From positions 11,913,146 to 11,977,145 of the forward strand of contig NC_060118.1 in the NCBI RefSeq assembly GCF_021155765.1: a DNA stretch of 64,000 bases. Reading direction: 5' to 3'. The notes under the pieces are model-generated. The model had not been told where the DNA came from and made no database searches. It was given only the letters and a program-made list of their open reading frames with translations. The position numbers and the translations under genes were made by a program. This stretch comes from Diprion similis. Taxonomy: Eukaryota > Arthropoda > Insecta > Hymenoptera > Diprionidae. Below, piece after piece: positions 19,256 to 64,000 of the stretch; positions within the stretch are counted from its first letter, which is position 1, and every line of letters begins with the position of its first letter.

Positions 19256-20611
19256 TTATTCACCCTTCTTCACGGGGTAGTCAGGGATGTCAACTTCCCA
19301 AGCCGGTTCTCCGCCGTCGACCATCCATACACTTCCACTTTTGCCAACTTTTATGATTTGCATCAAGCCCTTCGCCACGCTCTCTGGTCTGAGGAACGAA
19401 ACGTTGTCGTCAATGAAGATAATCTCAAATTTTTCAATAAATCAACTGTCTGAGATTCTGTTACAAGCGCAAGAACCAAGGAAGCATAAAAACAGAAAGA
19501 ATCTCTTCGAATTTTTACGAAAGAACCGTCGTTAGGAGGGCTCTACTGTGTATACGAACGTTTGACTGGGAATGCTGTCGAGGAGGTCAAAGAGCTCTTG
19601 TTTTTCAACTATATCCAGCATCCGTCCACCAGCCTCCGTTATCAGTTGAGTCTCCGTGGCACCCGGGCACATCGTCAGTACTCGAACTCCCGATCTATCG
19701 TAGTGATAGGGATGCTGTTCGAATCGGAAGAGAGATTAACGGAGAGCCGCATCCGGAGTGCACTTTTGTCAAGAGGCTGAATTTACGTTTTACGGCGAAG
19801 ATCTAATGTGTTTTGGGCATTGCAGAATCTCACTGTAATATTCTTTGTTGTAATCTTACCCCGAACGAGCGACTTATACCAACGACGGCGTGTTTTGTTC
19901 CGTGGTAAATGGGGAAAGGCTGACTCGGAATCAGACCGGCCACGGAGGCAACGTTGACGAGGGTTCCTCCTTTGCCGCCCTTGTCTTTTCCCATATATTG
20001 GAAGGCCAGCAAAGTACCACGCACCACGGCGGTCTAGAAGTTAGAAGGTGAGAATTCAATCGAGAGGAGAGAAATTTTGCTGTCGATTAATGATATTTTA
20101 TGTACACACGTACTATGTTAATGTTGATCATGAGTTCCCACCGCGCGTCGTCCATTATTCCGGCATTGTTGATCACGATGTCGAGCCTCCCGTAATCCTT
20201 GACCACCTTGGCGAAAGCATCTTCGCAAGTTTGATTGATAAATGTTATGGCTTGGTCGGGAGGAGTTATTAATTTTTATAACTATGAGAGAAGAATTTCA
20301 CCTTCCAAATCCTGGGGCTTCGTCACGTCGCAGACGATGAAAATCACCCGGTCGGATCCGAATTCGGCGTTGAGTTTGTTCGCCGATTCGTCCCCCTTCG
20401 AATTCGCTAAATCGAGAATCGCCACGTGCTTTGCGAATGCAAGTTGAACCGTTAATCGACTTCACTCGATGAATTCTATTATTCGTTCTTTGGCCATATT
20501 TTTACTCTCACAACTTACCGCAGCTCCGTTTCGCAATAGTTCCTGGACGTAGGCGAAGCCTATGCCGTTAGCTCCTCCGGTCACCAACGCAATTTTGCCC
20601 TGTATCTCCAT
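19256..20611 (-). CDS. SDR-1: short-chain dehydrogenase, 15-hydroxyprostaglandin dehydrogenase-like
   Basis: Exons in gene order: 20611-20519, 20428-20302, 20220-20114, 20033-19860, 19714-19560, 19388-19256; 262 aa. Classical SDRs of this type are soluble NAD-linked enzymes that oxidise a secondary alcohol to a ketone. Visible motifs are TGGANGIG (11-18), LDL with Asp37 (NAD rather than NADP), Asp65, NNAG (91-94), Asn108, Ser139, Tyr152 and Lys156, so it should be active. Intron phases are 0, 1, 0, 0, 2. The start is the only Met before the Rossmann motif. Its closest relative is SDR-4, with exons 1-3 almost identical including introns. The C terminus is short (ends KKGE). The substrate is unknown; the prostaglandin name is a family label only. 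Confidence 0.93.
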
Positions 20612-20947
20612 GCCTGACAGAATGTATTTCCCTGCAATGTACAATTTGGCAACGGAGTGAAATGGATTCAATACCTGTCTTATCTTCTGTGTACAATTTC
20701 AATCGCCTCTAGATCAAATTGATGTTATCACTTTATCAACGCGAGGTTGCGTAATGAGATTTCGAAACGGATTTGAACCAGTGTAATATTTTTGCTTAAA
20801 GTATATTGAACTGATATCAATAATTATTATCAGTGCACGTCCAATAAAATCTGTGTGACTTAAATTCTGCGCGAAGAAATCAAAAAATGAAAATCAGTTC
20901 GCCAAAAACTGAATGGAATGGGTAATTCGTGAATAATCTGTACTCAC

Positions 20948-21044
20948 TTGTTGTGGCCACACTGCACCCCGTTCAATCAATCAAACTCAACTCAAACGGA
21001 GTCAGCTATTTATAATCTCCCAACTCGTTATCTTCAACCGATAA
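20948..21044 (-). promoter_or_regulatory. SDR-1 promoter and 5' UTR exon
   Basis: Reading leftward, two facing GATA motifs (GATAA at 21040-21044 and its inverse at 21028-21032) precede a TATA-like ATTATAAATAGC at 21005-21016. A short non-coding exon follows and ends at the donor GTGAGTA (20941-20947). The matching acceptor lies just upstream of the ATG at 20611. The same arrangement occurs at SDR-4. Confidence 0.6.
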
Positions 21045-23428: not shown

Positions 23429-23604
23429 TTATGCAGGTATTTGAATATGAAACTATCAAATGATTTCATTTTCGGTTTGGTTAAAATTTATTTTCACCCA
23501 ATAAGTTCTTCTCTGACGGACTAATTGTCCAGCAGCTTCCTACTCGGATAGATTTATTTTCATTGGGTGAATGGAAATGTGCTGATCAGCTCGAATCGAC
23601 CGAT

Positions 23605-25829
23605 TCACCCTTCGGTCGGGGCCTTCGCGACGGGATAATCGGGAACCTCAGCTTCATAAGGCGGTTTTCCAGCTTCGACGACCCACACGCCGCCATTTTC
23701 TCCCTTTTGGATCACGTGGATCATACCCTTTGCCGCGTCATCGGTCCTGAAGAAACAGCAATGTTTGTAAACTTATAAACATTTCATATCCTTTACAGTA
23801 ACGGTTTAAATACCTTTGAAATCAGAACGAAATACGGTACAACTATCTATTCATCGTGATTATAGTTACCGATCTCGAATTTTTTGCTTATTATACGACG
23901 TTAATTACTTTTGTTCGGTAAACAAAATTTTTTTTTTTTTTGCATCCAAGACCTGAAGTTCAAATTGTCGCAATAGTTTTTGACTAGTTAAAAGTAAGAG
24001 TGAAAGCTATAAAACTGATTTTCATCTTGTATCAAGGATAGGGTGGTCGATATTTTCCAAGATATACTTCCCACCCCTGGAATCGATAGAAAAAAACGAA
24101 AAAAACAGTGTCTGTATTATTTCAGATTTTTATCTTGATAGGAAAGGATGTCGAAATCAATTTGAAGTTGAAAAACAAATTTTTTCATTTTCTTACTCGA
24201 TAATTGAAAAAAAAATTTTTAACTTTAAATTGATTCCAGCACCCTTTCCAATGAAATTAAGAATCTGAAATAATTCAGACACCAGGAGTGGGAAGTATAC
24301 CTTGGATATTAAGCAGCATCCGAATCCATAACCATACTTTTCGTTACGGATAAAAATTAAAAACCGTCAAGAAATGCTTAAAAACCACAATTAGAAACTC
24401 CTCGCGATGGAGTATCGTGAAAATGAGGCACTTGACGAAGAAATACACACGATATTGAAGGGTAGGCGTCCATAATTTGTGTGATCACATCCAAACCGAC
24501 GCAATCCAACGTTCGTCCAGCGCATTGGGTCAGCAGTTGAGTATTCGCAGCACCTGGACAGACGGTCAGCATTCTAACACCAGTCCTGTCGTAGTGATAC
24601 GGTCTCTGGATTGACAGGAAAATCAGTATCAAATTTAAACGAGATACCAAACAATTTTCAACTTTTAGTTTTTACCGCAAACGACCGAGTCAGACCAACG
24701 ACCGCGTGTTTAGTCCCGGTGTAGATGGGAAAAATCTCAATGGGCATCAGGCCCAGAACCGAAGATACGTTAACGATGGTTCCGCCCTTTCCATTCTTGT
24801 CTTTTCCCATGTACTTAAGCCCCAGCAACGTTCCACGAGCCAGAGATGTCTGCATCAGGAAAAGAGAAGAGAAACTTGTCAATGAGATTGGGAAACAAAT
24901 ACTCACAGAATGTTCATTTGTTTATAATATGCCTTCTTATCTCATCCATTGACCTATTCATGACTGAAATCCGTCATGCGAAACGGAACTTGTTCGATAC
25001 TTGTCATTAGTTTTCAGTGTTCACGTGAACTGCGAAGCATCTGAAGTGTACCACCACTTGTGACAATGGCGTCAAAGTGTATCCAATGAGTGTGGCCACG
25101 ACTGGATGGAACGATTGCCAGAACTGTGACTAATAAATGGATCTTCAAGATCGGTACATCTATTCTGAATAATTTTTTATGTTTGTGAAAACAGCGGTGC
25201 CCAATGCTGGTTGATGATTATCGGACCCCTTTTAGACCTGCTTCATGTTTGATTACATCAATCTCGATAAATCGGGATGATTACGTGATCCGTAATTGAT
25301 CACGCAAAAGATAGATCGATTCGGATGATTACAGTGGTTCACAAGCTCACCAAATTGATGTTAATCTCGAGTTCCCATCTCGCGTCGTCCATTATTCCAG
25401 CGTTGTTGATGACGATGTCGAGACCACCGAATTCCTTGACGGTCTTGGCGAACGCAGCTTTGAATGTCAAGTAGAAAAACGTGTCGTTATGTTCAGTCTA
25501 CATTTTTCCATGGTATTGAATAAACGGTTTATAAACTACCTTCCAGTTCCTCGGGTTTCGTCACGTCACAGACGATGAAGAGCGCCTTCCCATTTCCGGA
25601 TAGACTGTTAAGCTTCTTCTCCGCTTCTTCCCCATTCGAGTTCTTCAAATCGAGAATCGCCACTCGCTGTCGGTAGAAAAAATTCACTCGTTTATTATTT
25701 GAGCCACTGAATTTTATCGACATGCATGAAACTCACCGCAGCACCGTTTTGCAGTAGCTCTTTTGCGTAGGCAAATCCAAGCCCGTTAGCACCTCCAGTG
25801 ATCAGCACGGATTTATTCTCGATCCCCAT
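23605..25829 (-). CDS. SDR-2: short-chain dehydrogenase, 15-PGDH-like
   Basis: Exons 25829-25737, 25666-25540, 25457-25351, 24849-24676, 24605-24451, 23746-23605; 265 aa. The cofactor motif is TGGANGLG, and Ser139, Tyr152 (IYTGTK) and Lys156 are present. Exon 4 ends in SFA instead of the usual SFG, a trait shared only with SDR-15. Introns 3 (about 500 bp) and 5 (about 700 bp) are the longest of those positions in the array. Exon 6 has an extended tail ending KAPTEG. It stands apart from its neighbours, so it is an old copy although its 3' flank repeat is young. Confidence 0.92.
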
Positions 25830-28050: not shown

Positions 28051-29282
28051 TCAAGCCTTCTTCACAGGCATGTCAGGAATATCGACCTCGTACGCTGGTT
28101 TCCCATCAGCGATTAGCCACGAGCTGCCGTTATTCCCGTTTCGAACCACCTTCATCACTTCATTAGCGACAAATTCAGGCCTGAAGAGGTAAATCAGAGG
28201 TCAGATTATCGAAGTGAATTAGTATCATAGTCTTCGAGTCGAGTAATAGGACAGAATGGATTAGGTACTCACGCTTGATCTCCAAAGTGGGGAAGCATTC
28301 TTGAGTGTTCCTTTTCGTCGACGATACTCTTCAGGATCCTTCCACCGCTTTTGGTTATCAATTGGGTGTTCGTGGCGCTTGGACAAATCGTTACAAATCT
28401 CACACCATTTTTCTCGTAGTGATACGGTTGCTGAATCAGAATTTATACCCATTAAATTAAGACACTCTAATCATGTTTCAACCCCATTTCAATTTCCAAT
28501 GTTTTTCTTCCCATTCTTACCCCGAACGATTTACTCAGACCGATAATGGCGTGTTTGGTAGCAGCATAGATGGGGAAAATAGTTACTGGTAGAAGACCAG
28601 CTATCGAAGCGATGTTGACGATGATTCCTCCTTTTCCACCGTTCTCTTTTCCCATGTACTTCAAACCCAACAGCACTCCATGGACGACGGCGTTCTGCGA
28701 TCATAAAAAATTTATGGTGAAAATTTTACTCCTTGGTAAAAACTGCAACTAATCAAAAGTTACTTCGCCTTTGATATCACTCTCACCAGATTGATGTCGA
28801 TCATGAGTTGCCATCGCGAGTCGTCCATTATACCGGCGTTGTTGAAGACGATGTCCAGTCCACCAAACTCCTTGACAGTCTTTGCGAATCCAGCTTCAGC
28901 AGATAAACGGTACAAATTGTTAGCTTATACCAGTCACTTTTACTTTCCTTAATTTAATAAAACTTAATCACCTTCCAGCTCCTCCGATTTCGTCACGTCG
29001 CAGACGATGAAGATCACTTTACCCTTTCCAAATTCCTCGTTCAGTTTGCTCACCACTTGGTCCCCGTTCGAGGTCGCCAAGTCAAGGACAGCCACGTGCT
29101 ATGGATAGAGAATCGATTCTTGGTTAAATGCCTGACTAGCAACTCGATCCAACCAGCTTTTTATGGCTATACTATATTCTCAAACTTACCGCAACCCCAT
29201 TTCGCAGGAGTGCTTTAACGTATTCCAGGCCAATTCCATTCGCCCCTCCGGTGATCAACGCGATTTTGTTTTCTATGACCAT
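28051..29282 (-). CDS. SDR-3: short-chain dehydrogenase, 15-PGDH-like
   Basis: Exons 29282-29190, 29098-28972, 28893-28787, 28694-28521, 28430-28273, 28180-28051; 262 aa. The catalytic triad is intact (ASIAG serine, IYAATK). Several otherwise fixed positions differ. Exon 3 begins with Ala-Gly instead of Ala-Ala, exon 4 ends GLSKSFG, and exon 5 is one codon longer than in SDR-1 and Lys-rich (RILKSIVDEKEH). It is not close to any neighbour. The transcript probably starts near 30410-30450, where a donor GTGAGTAA (inverse 30401-30408) faces the gene. That makes a 5' UTR intron of about 1.1 kb, longer than in other copies because an inverted-repeat element (29357-30288) sits in it. Confidence 0.92.
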
Positions 29283-29356
29283 TTCTGAAAAATTTATAGC
29301 CTGAATTCATGTTCAATTAAGGGTTAATGTCAAATAGTTGCTGATTTGATTGATTG

Positions 29357-31605: not shown

Positions 31606-33031
31606 TCACTCCGAAGCCTTCTTCACCGGATATTCAGGAATGTCAACCTCCCAAGCTGGTTCTCCGTTGTCGACCATCCATACACTTCCACTTTTGCCAA
31701 CCTTTATGATGTGCATCATGCCCTTTGCCACACTCTCTGGTCTGAGGAACGTAGGAAAACGTAGTCGTCATTAAATAAGAAAATAATATTTTGCAACGTA
31801 AGTAATTCTGACTGGAATAAATTTGTATACAATAGGGTCGGTCAGTGAGGCAGTGCTTTGATTGGCACGCCTGTGCAGCGCCGCTCACGTGACTAGAATG
31901 ATGGCACCACGCATGCGCAGAAAAGGGGGGGCATCGACCGAACGACTGTCGTTAGCAGGGTTCTACTGTGTATACGAACTTTTGAATGGGAATGCTGCCG
32001 AGAACGTCAAAGACCGCTTGTTGTTCAACCATATTCAGCATCCGTCCACCGGCCTTTGTGACCAGTTGAGTCTCCGTGCCTCCCGGGCACATCGTCAGGA
32101 CTCGAACTTCCGATCTATCGTAGTGATAGGGATGCTGTTCGAATCGGAAGAGAGATTAACGAAGAGCCACATCCGAAGTGCGCTTTTGTCAAGAGGCTAA
32201 ATTTACGTTTTACAGCGAAGATCTAATGTGTTTTGCGCATTGCAGAATCTCATTGTAATATTCTTTGTGGTAATCTTACCCCGAACGAGCGACTTATACC
32301 AACGACGGCGTGTTTGGTGCCACCGTAAATGGGGAAAGGCATTGCCGGCACCAGACCGGCAGCGGAGGCAACGTTGACGAGGGTTCCTCCCTTGCCGCCC
32401 TTGTCTTTTCCCATGTACTGGAAGGCCAGCAAAGTACCACGGACCACGGCGGTCTGGAAGTTAGAAGGTGAGAATTCGATCGAAAGGAAAGAAATTTTGC
32501 TGTCGATTGATGATATTTCATGTACACACGTACTATGTTAATGTTGATCATGAGTTCCCACCGCGCGTCGTCCATTATTCCGGCATTGTTGATCACGATG
32601 TCGAGCCTCCCGTAATCCTTGACCACCTTGGCGAACGCATCTTCGCAAGTTTGATTGATAAATGTTATGGCTTGGTCGGGAGGAGTTATTAATTTTTATA
32701 ACTATGAGAGAAGAATTTCACCTTCCAAATCCTGGGGCTTCGTCACGTCGCAGACGATGAAAATCACCCGGTCGGATCCGAATTCGGCGTTGAGTTTGTT
32801 CGCCGGTTCGTCCCCCTTCGAATTCGCTAAATCGAGAATCGCCACGTGCTTTGCGAATGCAAGTTGAACCGTTAATCGACTTCACTCGATGAATTCTATT
32901 ATTCGTTCTTTGGCCATATTTTTACTCTCACAACTTACCGCAGCTCCGTTTCGCAATAGTTCCTGGACGTAGGCGAAGCCTATGCCGTTAGCTCCTCCGG
33001 TCACCAACGCAATTTTGCCCTGTATCTCCAT
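31606..33031 (-). CDS. SDR-4: short-chain dehydrogenase, 15-PGDH-like, near-twin of SDR-1
   Basis: Exons 33031-32939, 32848-32722, 32640-32534, 32453-32280, 32134-31980, 31741-31606; 263 aa. Exons 1-3 and introns 1-2 match SDR-1 almost base for base at a constant offset of 12,420. Exons 4-6 are clearly more diverged: the loop before Tyr152 is AAGLVPAMPFPIY instead of VAGLIPSQPFPIY. At the exon 5/6 junction Thr is replaced by Lys, and the C terminus is KKASE. Intron 5 carries a small insertion. All catalytic residues are present. Confidence 0.93.
31835..31943. mobile_element. Small insertion in SDR-4 intron 5
   Basis: About 110 bp, relatively GC-rich, absent from the matching intron of SDR-1. 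Its ends are imperfect inverse copies (GGTCGGTCAGTG versus GTTCGGTCGATG). It is probably a miniature DNA element; the family is unknown. Confidence 0.45.
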
Positions 33032-34231: not shown

Positions 34232-35444
34232 TCAGGCTTTTTGCTTCTTGATAGGGGAATCTGGAACGTCGAGTTCACACACCGGTTCTCCGTCACTCGC
34301 CAGCCACACGCTTCCGTTTTCCCCGACTTTTATGACGTCGATAGCGCCCCGAGCTACGCTTTCCGGTCTGCAAAAAAAATAGCAATTGCAGTAAAGTTTG
34401 CGAAAAGTTTACGCGCTTTACGCGATTTACAAACTCTAACGTAATATTTTACTCACTTTTGCATGTTCGCAGCATTCAAGCGTTTCGAGAAGTATTCCTT
34501 TGTGGTCTCGTCGACTACAGTCCGTTCGGCACTCTTCGTGACCAACTGGGTCTGCGTAATGTGAGGACACAAGGTCAGCACGCGAACTCCTGTTTTTTCA
34601 AAATAGAACGGATGCTGCATGGATGAAAATACGAACACAAATGTGAATCAAGTAATCGAGGGGGAAACCCGCTGCCCTTAAAATCCACCCATATGTCAAT
34701 TTTCCTCAGTATCTCACCCCGAATGATCGGCTCACTCCGATAACCGCATGCTTGGTGCCAGTGTACACTGGGAAATATACAGTCGGTGTTATGCCAGCGA
34801 TCGATGAGATGTTCACCACAACGCCACCCTTGCCACCCTTGTCTTTTCCCATATGCTGGAAGGCCAGCAAAGTTCCGCGCACGACGGCCGTCTATGGAAT
34901 TATATGAATGAGATTGATAATTGATTCGGAAGTGAGATACTCGCCCATAGTTGACGGTTTATAACTTGCCAGGTTGATGTTAATCTCGAGTTCCCATCTC
35001 ACGTCGTCCATTATTCCAGCGTTGTTGATGACGATGTCGAGACCACCGAACTCCTTGACAGTCTTGGTGAACGCGGCTTATGGGTTTCATGGATCAGATA
35101 TTGAGTTGAGGAAGATGGCACGAGAATTCAACTTTCGAGCTTTGAATAATTACCTTCAAATTCTTGGGCCTTCGTCACGTCGCAGACGATGAAAAGCGCC
35201 CGATTCGCTCCGAATTCGTCGTTCAGTTTTCTCGCGGATTCATCGCCGTTCGAGTTTGCCAGATCGAGAAGAGCCACGTGCTGTTAGAGAGAAATTGGAT
35301 CACTTTTTTATCAACCTCTGATCAGCGTTCGTTTTAAATTTCAAAACTTACCGCAGCTCCGTTTTTCAAGAGTTCTTTGACGTAGGCGAAACCTATTCCA
35401 TTCGCACCTCCGGTAACAAGAGCGATTTTATTTTTCACGTCCAT
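34232..35444 (-). CDS. SDR-5: short-chain dehydrogenase, 15-PGDH-like
   Basis: Exons 35444-35352, 35280-35154, 35076-34970, 34891-34718, 34614-34457, 34367-34232; 264 aa. Intron 3 uses a GC donor (CTG|GCAAGT), as in SDR-7. The head (exons 1-2) is very close to SDR-6 and SDR-10; the tail is close to SDR-7 and shares the KKQKA ending. Residue 122, Tyr in nearly all copies, is His (FQHMGK). The exon 5 segment is distinctive (CPHITQTQL, then a Lys/Thr-rich stretch). Active-site residues are intact (SSIAG, VYTGTK). The donor GTGAGTAA facing the gene near 35655 suggests a 5' UTR exon upstream. Confidence 0.92.
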
Positions 35445-40185: not shown

Positions 40186-40472
40186 TTAGGCAGAAACCTT
40201 TTTTGCTGGCTCATCGGCTCGCTGGACTTCGTACGCTGATTCCCCGTTCTTGACACAACTAAGATGCCATTATATTGCCTAAAATTTTGTTGTCGTTGAA
40301 CCATTGGTTGAAGTGAGCGCTGAGAGAGGCCGAAGACTTTGAAAAATACATCTCACGTCTGGAGAGGGAAAGTGGAAAACGATTTGTCGATGAAATCGAT
40401 GTCTGTATCTTGGTTTTAACAACTTGATAACGTTGGAACGAGGATGAGAATCCTTTTTTTCAACATATTATA
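40186..40472 (-). pseudogene. Decayed SDR copy: exon 6 and part of exon 5 only
   Basis: 40186 to about 40260 matches exon 6 of SDR-8/9/10 (ending KKVSA then stop) but is cut short and frame-broken. 40356-40390 matches the 3' part of SDR-10 exon 5. It then jumps directly into sequence like SDR-10 intron 4 (about 40392-40472 against 48937-49010), so roughly 140 bp of exon 5 are gone. Exons 1-4 are absent. A promoter-like region persists upstream (TATA-like ATTTATAATC at 40527-40536; paired GATA at 40550-40566). Confidence 0.75.
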
Positions 40473-42593: not shown

Positions 42594-42687
42594 GATTGAT
42601 CTCGATCATGAGATCCCATCGCGAATTATCCCCATCCATTATACAGCGTTACTTATCATGATATCGTCACCACCAAACTCTGACCGT
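42594..42687 (-). pseudogene. Isolated SDR exon 3 relic
   Basis: On the - strand this reads as a broken exon 3. EFGG is recognisable, then a garbled INNAGIMDD segment with an in-frame stop and indels, then a sequence like WELMIEIN. No other exons are recognisable around it. It lies in the gap between SDR-7 and SDR-8 and marks another lost copy. Confidence 0.65.
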
Positions 42688-48521: not shown

Positions 48522-49757
48522 TTAGGCAGAAACCTTTTTCACTGGCTCATCGGCTAGCTCGACTTCATAGGCCGGTTCCCCATTCTCGACAACCCAGGTG
48601 CTGCCATTATTTCCAACGCGTATGATGTGCAGAACACCTTCAGCGACGCTCTCCGGCCTACGTTATAAAATTTTATTGTCGTTGAACCATCGGTTGAAGT
48701 GAGCGCTGAGAGAGGCCTGAGACTTTGAAAAATACAACTCACGTCTGCAGAGGGAAAGTGGAAAACGATTTGTCGATGAAATTCTGCTCCACAGTGTCAA
48801 GAGTTCGTCCGACGCATGCCGTGATCAGTTGCGTGTTGGTGAAGAAGGGGCACATCGAGACTACTCGAACGCCTGTTCTGTCAAAGTGATAAGGCAGCTG
48901 TTTGGAAAGCGGAAAATGATTGTCAAGCACGACTCTCGATGTTCGTATCTTGGTTTTGACAACTTGATGACATTGGAACGAGGATGAGAATGCTTTGTTT
49001 CAACATATTACCCCGAATGATCGAGTCAGGCCGACGACCGCGTGCTTCGTAGCGATGTAAACAGGAAAAGTTGGAGCTGCAACTAGTCCTGCGACTGATG
49101 ATATGTTGACGATGACGCCACCTTTGTGTCCTTTGTCCTTACCCATGTACTGGAAGCCAAGCATAGTTCCGCGCACGACGGCAGTCTGTGAAATGGAGAT
49201 CGTTGTGGTTAAACTGTTAGGTGATTCGAGTGATATTCTTTCTTACGGTTTGTCCAAATTGCTACGGTTTAACAACTCACGAAGTTTATAGCGATTTCTA
49301 GCTCCCATCTCGCGTCGTCCATGATTCCAGCGTTGTTGATGACGATGTCGAGACCACCGAACTCTTTGACAGTCTTGGCGAACGCGGCTAATTGAGAATT
49401 TAATTGGATAGATTTTAGAGTCGATTATGATCCGAGACTCGTTTCGCTTATTGTGCAGTAAATTACCTTCGAAGTCCGCCGACTTCGTCACGTCACAGAC
49501 GATGAAAAGCGCTCGATCCGCTCCGAATTCGTCGTTCAATTTTCTCGCGGATTCATCGCCGTTCGAGTTTGCCAGATCTAGAAGAGCCACGTGCTGATGG
49601 ACAGAAATTGGATCACTTTTTTATCACCCTCTAATCAGTGTTCATTTCAAACTTCAAAACTTACCGCAACTCCATTTTTCAAGAGTTCTTTGACGTAGGC
49701 GAAACCTATTCCATTTGCACCTCCGGTAACCAAAGCGATTTTATTTTTTACATCCAT
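48522..49757 (-). CDS. SDR-10: short-chain dehydrogenase, 15-PGDH-like, mosaic copy
   Basis: Exons 49757-49665, 49593-49467, 49387-49281, 49185-49012, 48897-48743, 48657-48522; 263 aa. The head resembles SDR-5 and SDR-6 (TGGANGIG, exon 1 ending NGVA, exon 2 LANSNGDES and GADRALF). The tail belongs with SDR-8/9 (GHKG marker, VYIATK, KKVSA ending). It differs from them in the pre-Tyr loop (VAAPTFPVY) and in exon 5 (FDRTGVRVVS, CPFFTNT, AC in place of EC). Intron 2 differs from all relatives. Active-site residues are intact. Confidence 0.93.
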
Positions 49758-50326: not shown

Positions 50327-51749
50327 TCATTCCCCGCTTTTTATCGGAACTTTCTTCATTACTTCATCCGGAATTTCAACCTCGAACGCCGGTTCCCCGT
50401 TTTCGACAAGCCAAACGCTGCCGCTCTTTGCATCGCGTAAAATTTGTGTCATGCCTCTAGCAACGCTCTCCGTCCTGTTGGTCAAAACATGATTCCCGTT
50501 ATTGAAACAGAGGTGACGATACTATATTAGAAAATATACTAACGTTTGCGATGGATAGGTCTTCACTATTTCTATTACAGTCTCTGGGGCGACAGCGTCC
50601 AACGTTCGTTTCGGGGCCCCCGTTACGAGCTGCGTGTTGGTGCCACTTGGGCACATCGCCAAAACTCGAACGCCAGTTTTTTCGTGGTGATACGAATGCT
50701 GGAAGGATTGGAAATAGACCGTGAAGTCGGACCGTTCGTCCAAGCTTTGAACAAGTGTGCGGTTAACGCTTGCAATAAACAAGAACCGCTTTATGTGATC
50801 ACGACTTGAAGTGCCGGGCAACAAGGTGCATCGAGGACTCTCTTCTTACCCCGAATGATCGAGTCAAGCCGATGACCGCGCACTTGGTGCCCACGTAGAT
50901 CGGGAACATTGGAGCATGGATAAATCCAGCTATGGAAGCGATGTTCACTATGGTCCCCCCCTTTCCGCCCTTGTCCTTTCCCATGTACTGGAAACCAAGC
51001 AGCGTTCCACGCACTAGGCCGATCTGTCGAAAAGTTTGTAATTAGAGAAAAATTGTGCAATGAGAAAATGGGGTCTGACGTAGACAATGTAGAGATAAAA
51101 ATCTGATGACAACATTCCTGAGTTGTAATTCCAAAAGCTTAGTTACCGATGCCGAAATACGTTGGGTGATGCTAGAGGACGAAGTATTCCTGTTTTTTGA
51201 ATCAGGGTAAAAAAATTCAAGTTCAAGGTTCACGTCAGCTGCTTAATCATCGCGTGTAATTGAATATACTTACGTAATTGATGTTGACCTCTAACTCCCA
51301 ACGCGAATCGTCCATTATGCCAGCGTTGTTGATAACGATATCGAGCCCACCAAATTCCTTGACAGTCCGGGCGAACGCAACTGCACAGTTTGGGATATAT
51401 AGTTAACATCAACTATAGTTACTTGCACCGTCGATTTTCATTATGATACAAAGTATTACCTTCAATTTCCTCAGACTTTGTCACGTCACAGACGATGAAG
51501 ATCACTTTGTCCTTTCCGAATTCTTCGTTCAGTTTTCTCGTTGATTCATCGCCGTTTGAGTTTCTTAGATCTAGAAGAGCCACGTGCTGTTGGATAAAAA
51601 TTGGATTATTTTTTATCTGCCACCGATCGGCGTTCATTTTCAATTTCGAAACTTACCGCAGCTCCGTTTTTCAAGAGTTCTCTGACGTATGCGAAACCTA
51701 TTCCATTTGCGCCTCCGGTGACCAGAGCGATTTTATTTTTCACTTCCAT
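50327..51749 (-). CDS. SDR-11: short-chain dehydrogenase, 15-PGDH-like
   Basis: Exons 51749-51657, 51586-51460, 51380-51274, 51023-50850, 50698-50544, 50474-50327; 267 aa, the longest product because exon 6 has an added tail (ends KVPIKSGE). Exon 4 begins IGLVRG, where most have TAVVRG, and Cys follows the catalytic Lys (TKCAV). Exon 5 opens HSYHHEKT and carries a basic GAPKRTLD. Exon 3 starts with Val. SDR-12 shares these tail features. The head resembles SDR-5 and SDR-10 (LRNSNGDES). The catalytic triad is present (ASIAG, IYVGTK). Confidence 0.92.
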
Positions 51750-52902: not shown

Positions 52903-54403
52903 TTACAAAGCTTTCCTGATCACCTCATCGGGAATGTCAACTTCGAACGCCGGTTCTCCATTTTCAACAAGCCAAACGCTGCCGCTCTTTCCGTCACGTA
53001 TAATTTGGACCATGCCATGCGCCACGCTGTCTGCCCTGATGGTCAAACTTGATTATCGTCATTGAAACAAAGATGATTTAACAATATTCTGGAATATACT
53101 AACGTTTGCGATGAATAAGTGCTCAATATTTCCGTCACAGCCTCTGGGCTGACGGCGTCCAGGGTTCTCTTTGGGGCCCCCGTTACGAGCTGCGTGTCCG
53201 TGACGCTTGGGCACATCGCCAAAACTCGAACACCAGTTTTTTCGTAGTGATACGAATGCTGAAAGGATTGGAAATAGACCGTGAAATCGGACCGTTCGTC
53301 CAAGCTTTGAAGAAGTGTGCGGTTAACGCTTGCAATGAACGAGAACCACTTGATGTGATCTCGACTTGAAGTGCCGGGCAACAAGGTGCATCGAGGACTC
53401 TCTTCTTACCCCGAATGATCGAGTCAAGCCGATGACCGCGCACTTGGTGCCCACGTAGATCGGGAACATTGGAGCATGGATAATTCCAGCTATGGAAGAG
53501 ATGTTCACTATGGTCCCCCCCTTTCCGCCCTTGTCCTTTCCCATGTACTGGAAACCAAGCAGCGTTCCACGCACTAGGCCGATCTGTGGAAAGGTTTGTA
53601 ATTAGAGAAAAATTGTGCAATGAGAAAATGGGGTCTGACGTAGAAAATGTAGAGATAAAAATCTGATGGCAACATTCCTGAGTTGTAACTCCAAAAGCTT
53701 AGTTACCGATGCCGAAATACGTTGGGTGACGCTAGAGGACGTAGTATTCCTGTTTTTTGAATCAGGGTAAAAAAAATTCAAGTTCAAGGTTCACGTCAGC
53801 TGCTTAATCATCGCGTGTAATTGAATATACTTACGTAATTGATGTTGACCTCTAACTCCCAACGCGAATCGTCCATTATGCCAGCGTTGTTGATAACGAT
53901 ATCAAGCCCACCAAATTTCTTGACAATCTTTGCGAAAGCAACTGCACAGTTTGTAACAAATAAATGTTTTCAGAGACCCGTTATTTGCAGTGTAAAGTTT
54001 CAATATGACACAAGGTATTACCTTCCAGTTCCTCAGACTTTGTCACATCGCAGACGACGAATATCGCTCGACCATCTCCGAATTCCTCGTTCAATTTTTT
54101 CACCGATTCTTCACCTTTCGAATTAGGCAAATCGAGAACCGCCACGTGCTGTACGGATTGAAATTTAACCATCGTGACACTTTGTGCTTTCCGAATTTTT
54201 TTAATACTCACATCAAAGCATCGAGAATATTTGCTTGGTCATAATTTTTCAGTTCCAACAAATTATTCATAAGTCAAATTAAAAAAGTACTTTTTACTGG
54301 GATAACTTACCGAAGCTCCGTTTCGCAAGAATTCCTTGGCATATGAAAAGCCGATTCCATTGGCGGCGCCGGTGATCAAAGCAATTTTATTTCTCACATC
54401 CAT
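52903..54403 (-). CDS. SDR-12: short-chain dehydrogenase, 15-PGDH-like
   Basis: Exons 54403-54311, 54148-54022, 53941-53835, 53583-53410, 53258-53104, 53035-52903; 262 aa. From exon 3 to exon 5, including introns 3 and 4, it is nearly identical to SDR-11 at an offset of about 2560. Exons 1-2 differ: TGAANGIG, FSYAKEFLRNGAS, LPNSKGEES. The start of exon 1 is shared with SDR-13. The tail ends early (IRKAL). Exon 5 has VTDTQL where SDR-11 has GTNTQL. Active-site residues are intact (SSIAG, IYVGTK). Confidence 0.92.
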
Positions 54404-54977: not shown

Positions 54978-56351
54978 TTAGGTTTTCGTCACGGGTTCAT
55001 CAGGAATGACGAGCAGCTCTGGCTGTTTTTCTTTCTCAACAAGCCAGGAAGTACCGGGTTCAGCGACACGTAAAATGTACAAGAGGCCTCTGGCCACGTT
55101 CTCGACACTGAGGAACGGTAATCGCGTTATTAGCACTTACGACTATTTTAGCATTAGCTGCGACTCACGAACATCATTAAAATCGTCCCGTACAGACATA
55201 CTTTCGAATCTTGGCTATGGATCGAAAAACAATACTAACGATTGCAGGGGCAGCAAAGCCTTGTCTGCAGGAATCACATCCACGGTTATGCCGTCGAGTT
55301 TTCGATCTTCAGCCTCGGTCATCAATTGCGTATTCGTGACGCTCGGACAGATCGCGATGACTCTGACGTTGGTTTTCTCGTAGTGATAAGGTTGCTGTAT
55401 GGATCAGAAGAAACGGGTCCAATGAGACCAAAGATCCGTTAAAGACGGTTAACCTATTGATGGTGTAATCCGGTTGCTAATTTACTGATAAAATCTTTCT
55501 GGTAGCGAATTTCCTCATCAAATCTTACCCCGAATGATCGAGTTAGACCAATGACTGCGTGTTTCGTAGCGCAGTAAACCGGGAATATCAGCAATGGGAT
55601 TACGCCAGCGATCGAAGAGACGTTCACAATCGTTCCTCCCTTGCCTCCGTTGTCTATTCCCATGTACTTCAGGCCCAGCAACGTTCCACGAACCAGTGCA
55701 GTCTGTCGTGAGGGTAAAGGGTACGTTAACAAACATGGGTTCAAAATGGTCGACTCGATGGAAAATGGTGGAATTAGCGAATGAATTGAGTTCGTACTAT
55801 CTAGAAGTCGAGTGGAACGAGTGCAAATCGGTTTACTCATTATATTTCATTTGTAGTTCGACTTACGACGTTGATGTTTATCTCAAGTTCCCATCGACTA
55901 TCGTCCATTATGCCAGCGTTGTTCACGACTATGTCAAGTCCCCCAAAGTCCTTGACAGTCTTGGCGAATGCATCTTCACGTGTTGAACAAGTAAAAGTAT
56001 CATGATACCGCACTTTGTGGGACGTTGTGAGTAGTTTTGCACCTCTACATCATTCTCTTATTTCTAACTACCTTCAAGCTGCTGTGCCTTCGTCACGTCG
56101 CAGACGATGAACATCGCTTTTCCATTTCCGAATTCCTTCTCTAATTTTTTCACCGCTTCGTCGCCGTTCGAATTTGCAAGATCCAAAATTGCCACACGCT
56201 AATAATTAATTAATAATGAATCATTAATATCTGAAACATACGTGCTTCAATCACTCACCGTAACTCCATTGCGCAATAATTCCACAGCGTAGGCAAAGCC
56301 GATCCCATTGGCCCCGCCGGTGATCAGAGCAACTTTATTTCTCACATCCAT
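54978..56351 (-). CDS. SDR-13: short-chain dehydrogenase, 15-PGDH-like, tandem twin of SDR-14
   Basis: Exons 56351-56259, 56198-56072, 55973-55867, 55702-55529, 55394-55240, 55107-54978; 261 aa. The pre-Tyr loop is VIPLLIFPVYCATK, with Cys next to the catalytic Tyr. Exon 5 reads EKTNVRV where others have EKTGVRV and contains an acidic EAEDRKLD. Exon 6 starts with Val-Glu-Asn where most have Pro-Glu-Ser, and the tail is shortened (PVTKT). Exon 1 follows the SDR-12 style at its start (MDVRNKVAL) but ends like SDR-14 (AVELLRNGVT). The promoter derives from the SDR-12 type. The triad is intact. Confidence 0.92.
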
Positions 56352-56923: not shown

Positions 56924-58268
56924 TTAGGTCTGCGTCACGGGTTCATCAGGAATGACGATCAGCTCTGGCTGTTTTTCCTTCTCAACAAGCCAGGAAGTAC
57001 CGGGTTCAGCGACACGTAAAATGTACAAGAGGCCTCTGGCCACGTTCTCGACACTGAGGAACGGTAATCGCGTTATTAGCACTTACTACTATTTTAGCAT
57101 TAGCTGCGACTCACGAACATCATTAAAATCGTCCCGTACAGACATACTTTCGAATCTTGGCTATGGATCGAAAAACAATACTAACGATTGCAGGGGCAGC
57201 AAAGCCTTGTCTGCAGGAATCACATCCACGGTTATGCCGTCGAGTTTTCGATCTTCAGCCTCGGTCATCAATTGCGTATTCGTGACGCTCGGACAGATCG
57301 CGATGACTCTGACGTTGGTTTTCTCGTAGTGATAAGGTTGCTGTATGGATCAGAAGAAACGGGTCCAATGAGACCAAAGGTCCGTTAAAGACGGTTAACC
57401 CATTGATCGTGTAATCTGGTTGCGAATTTCCTCATTAAATCTTACCCCGAATGATCGAGTTAGACCAATGACGGCGTGTTTCGTAGCGCAGTAAACCGGG
57501 AATATCAGCAATGGGATTACGCCAGCGATCGAAGAGACGTTCACAATCGTTCCTCCCTTGCCTCCGTTGTCTATTCCCATGTACTTCAGGCCCAGCAACG
57601 TTCCACGAACCAGTGCAGTCTGTCGTGAGGGTAAAGGGTACGTTAACAAACATGAGTTCAAAATGGTCGACTCGATAGAAAATGGTGGAATTAGCGAATG
57701 AATTGAGTTCGTACTATCTAGAAGTCGAGTGGAACGAGTGCAAATCGGTTTACTCATTATATTTCATTTGTAGTTCGACTTACGACGTTGATGTTTATCT
57801 CAAGTTCCCATCGATTATCGTCCATTATGCCAGCGTTGTTCACGACTATGTCAAGTCCCCCAAAGTCCTCGATAATCTTGGCGAACGCATCTTTAAGTGT
57901 TGAACAAGCAAAAGTATCACGATACCGCACTTTGTGGGACGTTGTGAGTAGTCTTGCACCTCTACATCATTCTCTTATTTCTAACTACCTTCAAGCTGCT
58001 GTGCCTTCGTCACGTCGCAGACGATGAACATCGCCTTCCCATTTCCGAATTGATTCTCCAATTTTCTCACCGCTTTATCGCCGTTCGAGTTTGCAAGATC
58101 CAAAATCGCCACACGCTAATAATTAATTAGTAATTAATCATTAACATCTGAAACATACGTGCTTCAATCACTCACCGCAACTCCATTGCGCAATAATTCC
58201 ACAGCGTAGGCGAAGCCTATTCCATTGGCCCCGCCGGTGATGAGCGCAGTTTTTCCTTTGACGTCCAT
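56924..58268 (-). CDS. SDR-14: short-chain dehydrogenase, 15-PGDH-like
   Basis: Exons 58268-58176, 58115-57989, 57890-57784, 57619-57446, 57340-57186, 57053-56924; 261 aa. Exon 5 encodes exactly the same residues as in SDR-13, and intron 5 is almost identical, so the copies split recently. Differences cluster at the 5' side. Exon 1 begins MDVKGKTAL. Exon 2 has LENQFG against LEKEFG. Exon 3 has KIIEDFGG and a DNRWE stretch, and reads IVVNNAG as in SDR-13. The C terminus is PVTQT. It keeps its own promoter with a TATA box. Confidence 0.92.
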
Positions 58269-60055: not shown

Positions 60056-61874
60056 TTAAGATTTAACCTTTCGCACAACCTTGTCAGGAATGTCGACCTC
60101 GCAGGGTGGTTCAGCATTCGTCACCAGCCAAGAACTGCCGTTTTCTCCTTCGCGAATAATCTGCATCATAGCTTTGGCGACGCTTTCCGTTCTGAAAAAT
60201 GATCAGATCAGAATTTTATCAAAAAATCATTGATCAGAAATCATGAAAAGTTATGTAGGACGTATACAAACGATTGCATTTCGCTGAAGGTTTCTGTCAC
60301 CGAATTCGTGTTTATTATGCTCAGCGACCGTCCGACACTCTTGGTTATAAGTTGGGTTTCGGTAACGTCCGGACATATTGCTAGTAATCGAACGCCTGTG
60401 TTGTTGTAGTTTTCTGGTGCCTGTATGGGAAGAATTTGAATAAAAAAGATTTTGTGTTCAAATTAGCCTCTGTGAACTTTTTTGGGACACATATTGTGGC
60501 CAATTTGGTGGTCAAAACACCGTAGAATCCTCATGGAAATTGGCTTCCGGTCGAAATGGCTGGATTTCTGGCCTATATTATAGTAAATATCATCCCGATC
60601 CGAAAGTTTTTTTTACACAACACAAGTCCCAAAAATTACTAGATCCTGAGATTATACAAACTTCGGAAGAAGGTGGATGGATATTTTGATATATATGGAT
60701 TTCAGGATTGTCATGAATTATAAAGCTTCGAGAGGACTTGAAATCAAACGAATCGGTTGTGCAGTTTTTTACCGATATATTTGGTTTCAAGTCCTTCTTG
60801 AAGCTTTGTAATCCTTGAAAGTCGCGCAATCCATAGATATCAAAAAATCCATCCACCCCTCTTCCGAAGACTGTATCTCGTAAGCTACAGATTCTTGGGA
60901 CTTGTGTCCATGAGAAATAAAATACCGAAAATCCAGCCCATTCTAACGGGACCCAAGTTCCATATGGACTCAGCGGGATCCTTTAGCACGCAGACATAGC
61001 GTTAGATTGATATGAGATATTGTTCAAGTAGCACCAAATTACAGTCAGAAAAATCGACACCAAAATTTTTCTTGCACTTGCAAAGAAATGCTCTTCCATG
61101 GTGAACGAAAATAGGCAAAAGCTCACCGCGAATGATCGGGTGAGACCGATAACGGCGTATTTGGTCCCAGCATAAATGGGGAAAATGGGAGACGGCTGGC
61201 AGCCTACGATTGAAGATACGTTGACAATGGTTCCTCCCTTGCCGCCCATGTTTTTCCCCATGTATTTCAGACCCAGCAAAGTTCCGCGCACAACTCCGTT
61301 CTGCAAACGATTAAAGATCGGAGAAATGTTGCAGGTTATGATTCACTATTTAACGCTAGTTCAACACTCACGTAGTTAATATCGACCATGAGCTCCCATT
61401 TCGTGTCGTCCATTATCCCGGCATTGTTTATCACGATATCGAGTCCACCGCATTCTTCGAACGCCTTGGCGAATCCGGCTTCGAATGTTAAATAAACATA
61501 GTATTGCTTCTTACACATTTTGGAAATTGGTTAAATGATTATTTTAGTTCGCGTAATTTCATTCCGAATTACCTTCGAACTCCTTGGTTTTCGTCACGTC
61601 ACTGGCGACGAAGATCACCTTTCCATGTCCGAATTCGGAGTTCAGATTTTTCGCCACTTCCATGCCATTTGAGGTCGCCAAATCAAGAATGGCCACTTTC
61701 TGTGTGAAAGTTAAAAATTTGGTCGAAATCAAGGTTCGTTCTTAAGTGAGACGGTTTGTGTAATGTCTTTTTTAATCTTACTGCGGCTCCGTTACGTAAG
61801 AGTTCCTTAACGTAGGCAAAACCTATGCCGTTGGCTCCTCCTGTTACGAGTGCGATTTTACCCTTAATATCCAT
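60056..61874 (-). CDS. SDR-15: short-chain dehydrogenase, 15-PGDH-like, divergent copy
   Basis: Exons 61874-61782, 61699-61573, 61478-61372, 61300-61127, 60420-60272, 60191-60056; 261 aa. It has the shortest exon 5 (149 nt) and an unusual opening (APENYNNTGVR instead of xPYHYEKTGVR). The otherwise constant Cys64 before Asp65 is Ser (VASDVT). The pre-Tyr loop reads SSIVGCQPSPIFPIYAGTK. Tyr follows the catalytic Lys+1 (TKYAV), and exon 4 ends SFA as in SDR-2. Residue 126 is Asn (GKNMGGKGG, where others have GKDKGGKGG). The catalytic set is complete. Intron 4 (about 700 bp) contains a long foldback. Confidence 0.91.
60520..60980. mobile_element. Long imperfect foldback in SDR-15 intron 4
   Basis: Two arms of about 200 bp each. 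For example ACAAGTCCC (60622-60630) pairs with 60897-60905, CTTCGGAAGA.GGTGGATGGA pairs across about 60661-60680 and 60843-60868, and GGCTGGATTT near 60558 pairs near 60930. The loop is around 60750-60780. It would form a strong stem in RNA or single-stranded DNA. An 88-residue frame on the - strand (60590-60856) is a by-product. Most likely a foldback/MITE-type element. Confidence 0.75.
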
Positions 61875-63095
61875 ATCTGAAGGGGTTAATACTCGATTAT
61901 TTCCTAGAAAAAAACCATCTTCGTTTTTACAAGGATGTGGAATACTTGCGTGCGTTTACCGAGTTGAAGTCAACTAGTTTACATACACTTGGGAACTAAA
62001 CGAGTGGTCAATTTTTGTTAAATAAATACTCACTTGAGCGCAATCTATTTAGCTCGGTGGCCACTGTGCTATTAAGATATTATAAAACAAGATAACTGGA
62101 CCACGTATTTTCGAGTAATATGATAAGATACGCAGTGCATACGAAAGTGTTATCCATTCTTCGCCTTAAGCCGCAGATATAAAAATTCACATGGAATTGG
62201 GTTTTTTTTGTGTCGTTTTATGATCCATCGAACGCTACTTATCAGTGATTTCGAAAACCACTAATACGGACTTTATCGCGTTCTTTCGAGATCAGAGAGG
62301 TAATATATAAATCTTGGATTCGTCCATTGTGTCCAGAAGTCCTATTTTTCTTTCAAAATTCGAAAGATGAGTAACTGGCAGAAGATTCGACACAAGTCTT
62401 CTATAATTCTAGAACAATTGTTTTGGGTTAGCCAAAAACCAGAGATCTCGAATGCTGTCAAAATGGTTCACTAGGGAGCAGAAGTGTGATCCGGTTGAAC
62501 CAGAATCTTCCATAAATGCTTATGAATCCTTATCGAAATCTGTGCCATGTGTGATGTGACAAAACGTCACGCAGATCAAGTATGAAGCCAATAGTAAGGT
62601 TGGAGATAAAAATCGTTATACACAGTGAACATAACCTTTGGTACGTTATCGCCTTCCGCTCTTGTTATCGTTTCAATTATCACACACCTTCGATAAAATC
62701 ATTTGCAAATATTACAGGTACAATTGGGACTTGAGGTGATTAACCTGAGTAATTAATCTCGAAACTTCTATTTTATAAGCATCCAATACCATCACTGGAT
62801 AGCGTAAAACTTTTGCGTCAGAATTATCATGAATTATTTTTATTCGTTCATTTATTTATCAGCCGAACCAAAATACAGTAAATATATAAAATCTGGTTTT
62901 TTGTTGATCTGGCATTTCAGTATAGCTCTAAAGGTCGAGATTCTCTTCACTGTCTTATCTAGGCTTCAACAGCCTAAAAACAGAATCAGCACAGATTCAA
63001 ACCTAGAATCGTTTCGAACAAAACGTTTATCAATCATGCGAAACACTTTTACCGACAGTCTCGGGTCTCGACACGTTGTGGAATCCACTGTCCCC
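61875..63095. other. Intergenic between SDR-15 and SDR-16
   Basis: The left part holds the probable SDR-15 5' UTR exon (donor GTGAGTA, inverse 62028-62034) and an AT-rich/GATA-containing promoter around 62075-62125. The rest shows no gene. Confidence 0.5.
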
Positions 63096-64000
63096 TCAGC
63101 CCTTGACTTTCTCCACTGCCTGATCAAGCATCTGAGCTTCATAGGGTGGTTTTCCTGCCTGAACCACCCAGACACTGCCGTTATCCCCGTCTCTGATCAT
63201 CTGCATCATCCCATCGGCTACCGCTTCCGGTCTAAGATATAAAAACGTCACGTGACAATGATCGTTGTGATTTATGTGGAGTAAAAGCCGAAGATGATAG
63301 GAACTTTATACGAACTTTTGGATTGGGAAATCGGCCAGAGCTTCCCTAACGTTATCCGGAGTCAGACAGTCCAGCGTACTTTCTGGGTTGTTGGTCATCA
63401 GTTGGGTAGCCGTGGCGCTTGGACACATCACCATTATTCGGACGGCTGTTTTACCGAAGTGATGCGGGTGCTGAGTGAACAAAAAACGTAACCATCAATC
63501 GAACAACCTTCTTTACAAAAAAAAAAAAAACTTGCCCAACTTACTCCGAACGAACGACTTAGACCAATGACCGCGTGTTTGGTACTCGAGTAAACTGGGA
63601 AAGTCCAAATTGGGACGATGCCCAATATCGAAGAGACGTTCACTATGGTTCCACCCTTACCACCTTTGTCTTTTCCCATGTACTCGAAGCCCAGTAGCGT
63701 TCCGCGCACTACGGCAGTCTGAAATTGCGTATCTTACAATTGGGACTAAAAAGTCTTGGAGACGTGCAATCGTCGGCGCTTTTTACACACTTACGATGTT
63801 TAAATTTATCTCCATTTCCCACCGCGAGTCGTCCATTATTCCAGCGTTGTTGATCACGATGTCAAGTCCGCCGAATTCTTTCACTGTCTTAGCGAATCCA
63901 CCTTCAAGTGTTGAATTAGCGTCAGTATCTTACTTTCTTACTAGTGAATAATTCTTTCCCGGTTTCGCTTTATGTCTTTTCATGCAAATCACCCTCAAAA
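63096..64000 (-). CDS. SDR-16: short-chain dehydrogenase, 15-PGDH-like (5' end beyond window)
   Basis: Visible exons are 63901-63795 (exon 3), 63718-63545 (exon 4), 63470-63316 (exon 5) and 63231-63096 (exon 6). Exons 1-2 lie past the right edge. NNAG, the active-site Ser (SSILG), Tyr and Lys (VYSSTK) are visible. Exon 3 begins with Gly-Gly-Phe. Exon 5 is distinctive: HPHHFGKTAVR without the usual Tyr, then CPSATATQLMTNN. The tail (QAVEKVKG) and exon 6 (VQAGKPPYEAQ) recall SDR-2, which ends its body AGKPPYEAE. This is the outermost visible member, and the array may continue. Confidence 0.9.

Follow-up and report, generated by a model that had tools for sequence, protein, structure and literature searches.

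The window considered here, a stretch of 64,000 nucleotides of Diprion similis DNA, carries a head-to-tail run of SDR genes. This locus raises the question of what kind of enzyme these genes encode, how the copies have come to resemble and to differ from one another, and what such an array may serve for.

Array layout and gene integrity

The sixteen SDR copies reported on one strand by a first-pass annotation were all recovered, head to tail on the minus strand, between positions 19265 and 64000 (Table 1). The six coding exons attributed to every copy were found in 15 of the 16; the right-most, g01, is cut by the window edge and retains inside it exons 3-6 and just 8 nt of exon 2. The identical lengths described for exons 1-4 apply likewise to the 15 complete copies (93/127/107/174 nt), and exon 1 of g01, located beyond the window, is 96 nt long. 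The array does run off the right edge as had been stated; the remainder consists only of the 5' end of g01 and of one further gene, g00. Extension of the locus to the right, which had been proposed as a check, gives a full array of 17 genes spanning about 48 kb.

Table 1. Genes and relics of the SDR array, in window coordinates (positions beyond the right edge are window-equivalent)
Feature	Position	Strand	Remarks
g00	66225-67505		SDR gene beyond the right edge, last of the array
g01	63102..64000	-	SDR, exons 3-6 and 8 nt of exon 2 in the window; exon 1 at 64319-64414
g02	60059..61874	-	Intact six-exon SDR, 261 aa; intron 4 of 706 nt
g03	56936..58268	-	Intact six-exon SDR; exons 4-6 98-100% and exon 1 85% identical to g04
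g04	54984..56351	-	Intact six-exon SDR; 250 nt upstream 95% identical to those of g05
g05	52912..54403	-	Intact six-exon SDR; exon 3 through intron 4 93-99% identical to g06
g06	50348..51749	-	Intact six-exon SDR; exons 1-2 with g07/g11/g12, exons 3-4 and 5-6 with g05
g07	48525..49757	-	Intact six-exon SDR; exons 1-2 of g11/g12 type, exons 3-6 of g08/g09 type
g08	46313..47562	-	Intact six-exon SDR, 263 aa; numbering reference
g09	43613..45209	-	Intact six-exon SDR; repeat element in intron 4 (44133-44450)
Relic	42595..42680	-	Exon-3 piece with frameshift, between g10 and g09; score 60
g10	40926..42145	-	Intact mosaic SDR; exons 1-2 of g08/g09 type, 3-4 of g12 type, 5-6 nearest g11; GC donor in intron 3
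Relic	40189..40254	-	Exon-6 piece, between g11 and g10; score 78
g11	37380..39082	-	Intact six-exon SDR, 265 aa; intron 3 of 564 nt
g12	34235..35444	-	Intact six-exon SDR; GC donor of intron 3 common to g10
g13	31612..33031	-	Intact six-exon SDR; exon 1 through intron 2 99-100% identical to g16
g14	28057..29282	-	Intact six-exon SDR
g15	23623..25829	-	Intact six-exon SDR; introns 3 and 5 of 501 and 704 nt
g16	19265..20611	-	Intact six-exon SDR; left end of the array

Neither frameshifts nor internal stops were found in any of the 17 genes, and the introns are of the GT-AG type throughout, with the exception of the GC-AG intron 3 of g10 and g12. The exon 3/4 lengths of 111/170 returned by the aligner for g11 were due to a wrong donor and acceptor and were discarded, as inspection of the splice sites gives 107/174. 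Two relics, the number given by the first-pass annotation, are present, an exon-3 piece and an exon-6 piece, each with a score above the threshold of 45 in a scan of the masked array that kept only the best match per 2-kb stretch. A chance or simple-repeat origin of the array was rejected because open spliced frames and conserved motifs are present in 16/16 copies.

Scanning of the flanks yielded two copies, L1 and L2; the only other match, with a score of 47, was at chance level. Neither the stretch from g00 to C14:12,010,000 nor the one separating g16, at the left end, from the diverged copy L2 gave any score above 47 in the flank scan or any exon match in the genome search. The same contig also bears smaller clusters of this SDR family. 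The open-frame models of the family number 24, array genes included, and one of them (L2, outside the array) lacks the catalytic Ser. The fixed exon architecture, which had been presented as a trait of the array, did not prove specific to it: copies located outside share its intron phases and differ little from it in exon lengths, including the C5 copy, whose identity to the array genes is 40-45%. The architecture is therefore ancestral.

Elsewhere in this genome, contig C45 is mitochondrial, with COX1 recognised by its Pfam profile and a GC content of 16% over 14,279 of its 25,279 bases. As read from its frames, one strand carries COX1, COX2, ATP6, COX3, ND3, ND6 and CYTB and the opposite strand ND5, ND4, ND1 and ND2. 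TTAGG repeats occur close to the end of C14; they are absent from the first 600 bases of C5 and C12, and the corresponding bases of C4 are N. These features suggest a hymenopteran of another type than Nasonia.

Family assignment and age of the copies

The description of the locus as an intact, tandemly expanded set of classical NAD-type SDRs is borne out, with the N-S-Y-K tetrad of the active site and the NAD-selecting Asp (Asp37) conserved in 17/17 genes. The encoded enzymes are about 260 aa each, and the TGxxxGxG cofactor loop, read by eye from the alignment, is present in all 17, mostly as TGGANGIG and elsewhere as TGAASGIG or close variants. The sole array gene searched against Pfam, g08, matches adh_short with an E-value of 2.4e-47 and 161.4 bits, for a cut-off of 26.6. 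The comparison with solved relatives covered g08 and g12 among the 17 copies: the best match of g08 is human 15-PGDH (E 7.9e-50, over residues 1-240) and that of g12 is the Drosophila photoreceptor dehydrogenase (5ilg, E 4e-48). Sequence similarity assigns the array genes to the 15-hydroxyprostaglandin-dehydrogenase/photoreceptor-dehydrogenase branch of the classical SDRs.

The median pairwise dS among the copies is 1.59, and a recent burst was for this reason rejected for most of them. The closest pairs are g03/g04 (dS 0.10), g13/g16 (0.15) and g08/g09 (0.21). Counting estimates of dN/dS are below 1 throughout, with medians of 0.12-0.32, and give no sign of positive selection. Among five close pairs, the value is 0.41 for the lid versus 0.25 for exons 1-3.

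Exchange of segments between neighbouring genes

The less ordinary result of the array, missed by the first-pass annotation, is the exchange of exons between copies. In the tree of exons 1-2, g08, g09 and g10 are grouped together (support 99/99), as are g06, g07, g11 and g12 (96/97). The trees of exons 3-4 and 5-6 both group g07 with g08 and g09 (100/99 and 100/100, respectively) and g10 with g11 and g12 (97/97 and 100/99). Of eight groupings picked after the trees of other exons were seen, two already occurred in the tree; the AU test, applied to the other six, rejected that of g05 with g06 in exons 1-2 at p 0.039 and the remaining five at p of about 1e-4 or less. The introns behave in a similarly discontinuous manner, those of 99-100% identity adjoining unalignable ones within gene pairs. 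Between g10 and g12, identity amounts to 46% in intron 1, 99% in intron 2, 98% in exon 3, 94% in intron 3 and in exon 4, and 60% in intron 4. A permutation test for exchange gave a global P <=0.05 in 17 of 136 pairs; its null takes all sites to evolve at the same rate and is biased towards runs in conserved exons. As controls, introns at least 85% identical occur in 0/119 pairs of an array gene and an outside copy, introns 1-5 being comparable (long enough alike) in only 6, 27, 14, 22 and 7 of these pairs, and 0/2720 comparisons of non-homologous introns reach 85%.

The conflict between well-supported exon trees, together with the breaks in intron identity, therefore indicates that neighbours exchanged segments, mostly exons 1-4. 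The sequence pattern identifies gene conversion as a source of this exchange, and unequal crossing-over probably lies behind it as well. The 5' bias is not clean, as g03 and g04 are near-identical in exons 4-6 and unlike in exon 1; the counts scaled to comparable intron pairs, which are not independent, are 8/50, 8/93, 6/36, 2/30 and 1/31.

The assembly itself has to be considered as a source of such patterns. Duplication during assembly is unlikely as the origin of the copies, because the window contains no N and even the closest pair, g03/g04, diverges toward its 5' end, down to 47% identity upstream. An assembly or haplotype artefact is also a highly improbable cause of the mosaic pattern: near-identical blocks such as those of g03/g04 and g13/g16 are places where assemblers err, but in addition to the absence of N, the break points are private to each pair, most shared blocks are a few percent apart (though some short introns are 100% identical), and the introns and flanks beyond the shared blocks are mostly unalignable.

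Diversity of the substrate pocket and lid

The residues lining the 15-PGDH substrate pocket, as mapped by alignment to this enzyme, vary across the copies. Entropy is 2.17 bits at 14 pocket columns versus 0.96 elsewhere (P 1.4e-5) and, for the lid, whose alignment to human 15-PGDH is uncertain, 2.04 versus 0.89 (P 3.5e-9); both tests assume independent columns and take related genes for a sample. Sixteen distinct eight-residue pocket signatures are present among the 17 genes, g03 and g04 sharing one. Within the conserved exon 4, the mean for pocket columns is 1.92 versus 0.72 when the invariant column 149 is included (P 0.017) and 2.40 versus 0.71 when it is not (P 0.0012); the P value is 0.058 when the test is restricted to the columns named for 15-PGDH, that is without the Nasonia-derived column 148. 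Residues 140-148, situated before the active-site Tyr, and residues 186-215 of the lid, all encoded by exon 5, vary between most copies. Relaxed constraint would also be expected to give a variable lid, given that this loop varies among SDRs in general.

Functional interpretation

The array is, in our opinion, rather likely to consist of insect-type 15-PGDH-like classical SDRs which have exchanged segments and whose copies would act on different hydrophobic substrates. Neighbouring copies have traded segments mostly within exons 1-4, corresponding to the cofactor-binding and catalytic half. Different copies would oxidise a hydroxyl on different hydrophobic substrates, and may also reduce or epimerise that hydroxyl reversibly. 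Exchange would hold the common engine uniform and selection would keep the lids private. The likeliest roles would be the modification of pheromones or other semiochemicals, by analogy with the Nasonia relatives, and the removal of hydroxy compounds of lipid or host origin. It is more doubtful whether the array works as a lid-diversity system, in which frequent exchange keeps exons 1-4 concerted and moves promoters between copies, exchange of the lid exon being selected against. If this were true, each gene would retain its own substrate and stereochemistry, new combinations of engine, lid and promoter would form again and again, and the array would act as a lasting reservoir of new hydroxylated signals.

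Three narrower roles were weighed against this interpretation. A gut or fat-body role in processing a variety of alcohols from the diet or the host appears rather unlikely: many pockets with a single chemistry would suit detoxification or digestion, other SDR clusters are present in this genome and the array holds both old and young copies, a mixture typical of tandem arrays of detoxification families, but dN/dS bears no sign of rapid pocket change. Inactivation of eicosanoids by true 15-hydroxyprostaglandin dehydrogenases, suggested by the best solved match of g08, is very improbable. According to the study of the human enzyme, a hydrogen-bonding residue (Gln, or Glu/His/Asn) is required at position 148, the Gln148 Ala mutant loses all PGE2 activity and an Ala mutant of the lid hinge Phe185 is inactive on PGE2 (PMC9922282). 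All 17 array copies carry Phe in place of Gln148, the residue on which PGE2 oxidation depends, and are therefore not plain 15-PGDHs; the equivalent of Phe185 is kept as Phe in only 4/17 and that of the other hinge, Tyr217, as Tyr in 3/17, within the uncertain lid alignment.

A strict pheromone or semiochemical function, in which several copies would oxidise, reduce or epimerise hydroxylated lipid-derived gland signals, may be put forward tentatively by analogy. The Nasonia genes NV10127-NV10129 form a three-gene array of NAD-dependent SDRs that act in the stereochemistry of the male pheromone, a hydroxylactone which they epimerise; the stereoselectivity of NV10129 is shifted by exchanges at its residues 147 and 154 (PMC5050451, PMC6344473). 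QTL mapping and RNAi have linked tandem 15-PGDH-like SDRs to a sex pheromone change in Nasonia, as recounted in PMC5050451. The array equivalents of residues 147 and 154 are positions 140 and 148, at which 4 and 7 different residues occur across the 17 copies. The former was counted from Ser146 and the latter from Tyr158, and the mapping is unsure because this Ser is numbered 146 in PMC5050451 and 152 in PMC6344473. In the Nasonia OGS2 paper, six paralogues in two groups are described as an expansion specific to the lineage and connected with the male pheromone (PMC5000498). Against such a role, the Nasonia genes are expressed in females too (PMC5050451, PMC6344473), and their NAD-selecting acid, cofactor loop and Ser-Tyr spacing differ from those of the array.

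Comparison with known systems

The array genes, which we regard as 15-PGDH-like, have in common with human 15-PGDH (8fd8, 2gdz) the tetrad, the Asp selecting NAD (Asp36), the pocket loop and the layout of the lid. The Drosophila photoreceptor dehydrogenase is, like them, an insect member of the branch, and has a retinoid role. Genes of this kind, and their expansion in tandem, have been described before, so that the surprise is moderate. Among titles and abstract openings of the SDR/15-PGDH literature, no comparable array or exon exchange was encountered apart from the Nasonia papers.

The Nasonia pheromone SDRs are the nearest functional precedent, which the first-pass annotation missed; NV10127-NV10129 are likened here to the array by their published description. 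The proteins, 264-266 aa long, are likewise classical NAD-dependent SDRs encoded by a gene array, in a wasp; they are highly similar to 15-PGDH and keep the tetrad, and the positions at which NV10127 differs from NV10128 are concentrated in the active site, in the part that follows it and at the C-terminal end. Their array comprises three genes versus 17 in Diprion similis. The NAD-selecting acid is Glu45 in the published proteins and Asp here, the cofactor loop is TGGTSGIG there and mostly TGGANGIG here, and the Ser-Tyr spacing is 12 (Ser146-Tyr158) versus 13. The OGS2 expansion concerns the same named kind of enzyme, a hydroxyprostaglandin dehydrogenase (printed as 5-hydroxyprostaglandin dehydrogenase in PMC5000498), also in a hymenopteran, with six paralogues versus the 24 open-frame models counted here. 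Relative to these systems, the 17-gene array offers many natural variants at the two positions which, subject to the mapping given above, shift stereoselectivity in Nasonia, and it permits testing whether the exon that binds the substrate escapes gene conversion.

Gene models and extent of the array

The genes of the array were modelled by splice-aware protein-to-genome alignment, and sixteen SDR genes (g01 to g16, numbered from right to left) were resolved in the window. The count of sixteen in the first-pass annotation stands, with the amendment that the six coding exons claimed for every copy are seen in 15 complete genes, g01 being cut by the edge and represented inside it by exons 3 to 6 plus 8 nt of exon 2. 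The 15 complete genes share intron phases 0, 1, 0, 0, 2 and exons 1-4 of 93, 127, 107 and 174 nt (g11 with a corrected intron 3), as the uniform architecture described earlier had it. GC donors occur in intron 3 of g10 and of g12; every other intron is bounded by GT-AG. Once masked, the window was scanned on both strands, retaining the best hit per 2-kb stretch with a score >45; the two relics already noticed were recovered and no plus-strand SDR copy was found.

A protein search of the genome (269 Mb, 60 contigs), in which the window occupies C14:11913146-11977145, returned at least 144 matches, counts being lower bounds as 145 of 155 candidates were scored. This search and the flank models place the first exon of g01, a further gene (g00) and then the end of the array to the right of the window. 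The array does run past the right edge as had been announced, by this exon and this gene only, and comprises in full 17 genes over ~48 kb. The right-end gene g00 clusters with the copies at 8.87 and 9.66 Mb, apart from the other sixteen (100/99). In the distant copy on contig C5 (40-45% identity), intron phases match those of the array genes and exon lengths differ little from theirs; the common architecture therefore predates the array. Judging from its sequence, the left-hand copy L2 is possibly a non-enzymatic paralogue.

Features of the window, its flanks and other contigs of the genome (bare coordinates are positions in the window; C14 is the contig of the window)
Feature	Location	Strand	Description
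SDR genes g01-g16	19265-64000	minus	sixteen genes
Relic	42595-42680
Relic	40189-40254
Repeat element	44133-44450		within intron 4 of g09; weak inverted self-similarity
Inverted copy of repeat element	65417-65744 (window-equivalent)		92.7%
Transporter frames	8302-13127	plus	probable major-facilitator gene; PF07690 E 2.5e-11 for frame 8302-8979 only, later frames by reading
Tandem repeat array	12249-12871		161-bp unit; inside the transporter-gene stretch
Duplicated segment	17207-18528 and 22120-23421		1.3 kb, 92%, without SDR exons; downstream of g16 and g15
Inverted repeats	5489-6069 and 9489-10064		80-130 nt, 88-91%; longer pairs span ~3.4-4.3 kb
L1	C14, ~63-64 kb left of window	plus	intact copy
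L2	C14:11872166-11874501		diverged family member, open frame, Gln replacing catalytic Ser
Cluster	C14, 8.87 Mb		1 intact copy, 1 degraded, 1 exon relic
Cluster	C14, 9.66 Mb		3 copies with intact frames, 1 with in-frame stop
Single distant copy	C5
SDR match cluster	C4:26.513-26.525 Mb		genome search matches
SDR match cluster	C11:2.668-2.692 Mb		genome search matches
SDR match cluster	C6:16.798-16.817 Mb		genome search matches

All 40 scored places of the repeat element within g09 (itself included, from 682 first-look candidates) match at ≥96% over nearly the full length. The element resembles a short inverted-repeat transposon that was active recently.

Enzyme class and substrate pocket

The reference copy g08, the one submitted to Pfam, belongs to adh_short. 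Two of the 17 copies were searched against solved structures: g08 comes closest to human 15-hydroxyprostaglandin dehydrogenase (15-PGDH), and g12 to Drosophila photoreceptor dehydrogenase. The N-S-Y-K tetrad and the NAD-type Asp are present in all 17 genes, and the intact active sites of the first-pass annotation are confirmed. The position of human Gln148 is occupied by Phe in 17/17 copies and the lid residue Phe185 is retained in four of them. Since the human Q148A and F185A mutants display no activity on PGE2 (PMC9922282), the array enzymes are unlikely to perform ordinary prostaglandin oxidation.

Variability was measured as mean column entropy, which is lowest in exons 1-4 (0.56-0.79 bits) and higher in exon 5 (1.67) and exon 6 (1.40). 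The lid (residues 186-215 of g08), located entirely within exon 5, reaches 2.04 versus 0.89 elsewhere (P 3.5e-9) and also exceeds the remainder of exons 5-6 (1.32, P 4.3e-5). The pocket columns of exon 4 give 2.40 versus 0.71 when the invariant column 149 is omitted (P 0.0012), 1.92 versus 0.72 when it is counted (P 0.017) and 1.73 versus 0.76 when it is kept and the Nasonia-derived column 148 is dropped (P 0.058). Sixteen distinct eight-residue pocket signatures are found among the 17 genes, g03 and g04 being the same. Residues 140 and 148, with four and seven residue types respectively, correspond by counting to positions 147 and 154 of Nasonia NV10129, where exchanges shift the stereoselectivity of a pheromone SDR (PMC6344473). 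The dN/dS ratio in five close pairs is 0.41 in the lid and 0.25-0.34 elsewhere, with medians of 0.12-0.32 over pairs with dS <2; being below 1 in every class, it argues for diversification under constraint and does not demonstrate positive selection.

Exchange between copies

The trees of exons 1-2, 3-4 and 5-6 are in strongly supported mutual conflict. Using groups picked after the trees of the other exons had been seen, the AU test rejects, for exons 1-2, g10+g11+g12 (p 5.8e-6), g07+g08+g09 (p 5e-5) and g05+g06 (p 0.039); for exons 3-4, g08+g09+g10 (p 4e-7); and for exons 5-6, g08+g09+g10 (p 1e-4) and g07+g11+g12 (p 1e-52). Two other groupings were already present in the tree.

Segment identity profiles were established for ten gene pairs. 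Between g10 and g12, identity is 46% in intron 1, rises to 99% in intron 2, 98% in exon 3 and 94% in both intron 3 and exon 4, and falls to 60% in intron 4; their common GC donor lies within this tract. For g08 and g10, a stretch of 94-98% reaching from exon 1 through intron 2 gives way to 83% in exon 3 and then to 50% in intron 3. Introns 1-5 reach ≥85% identity in 8, 8, 6, 2 and 1 of the 136 array pairs (50, 93, 36, 30 and 31 comparable), in none of 119 pairs of an array copy with an outside copy (only 6, 27, 14, 22 and 7 comparable) and in none of 2720 non-homologous comparisons. A run-length permutation test, whose null takes no account of exon rate differences, yields a global P ≤0.05 in 17 of 136 pairs. 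Trees, introns and run lengths thus agree in showing, at the level of sequence, segment exchange among the array copies. The two-ended tracts fit gene conversion and the one-ended tracts unequal crossing-over. Exchange tends to be more frequent in the 5' half, with g03/g04 as a clear exception. The upstream regions of g04 and g05 (250 nt each, from 56352 and 54404 respectively) are 95% identical despite differing coding parts, which suggests that promoters may also be swapped.

Median dS is 1.59 over the 136 pairs, exceeding 2 in 23%, and the youngest pairs are g03/g04 (0.10), g13/g16 (0.15) and g08/g09 (0.21). The array is old as a cluster, and its copies are still turning over.

Discussion

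The enzyme class and the exchange of segments are established by these results. In the explanation that we favor, and which as a whole we regard as fairly probable, every gene would encode an NAD-dependent dehydrogenase combining a shared engine (the cofactor-binding and catalytic half, exons 1-4) with, mostly, a lid of its own. Swaps among neighbours would renew the engine and at times the promoter, and substrate choice would be located in exon 5 and the stretch preceding Tyr152. By analogy with 15-PGDH structures and with Nasonia (PMC5050451, PMC5000498), the copies may act on distinct substrates, in semiochemistry or clearance. Gene arrays of this kind are already known and the present observation is well supported; compared with the published Nasonia expansion, this array is larger and displays clear mosaic evolution.
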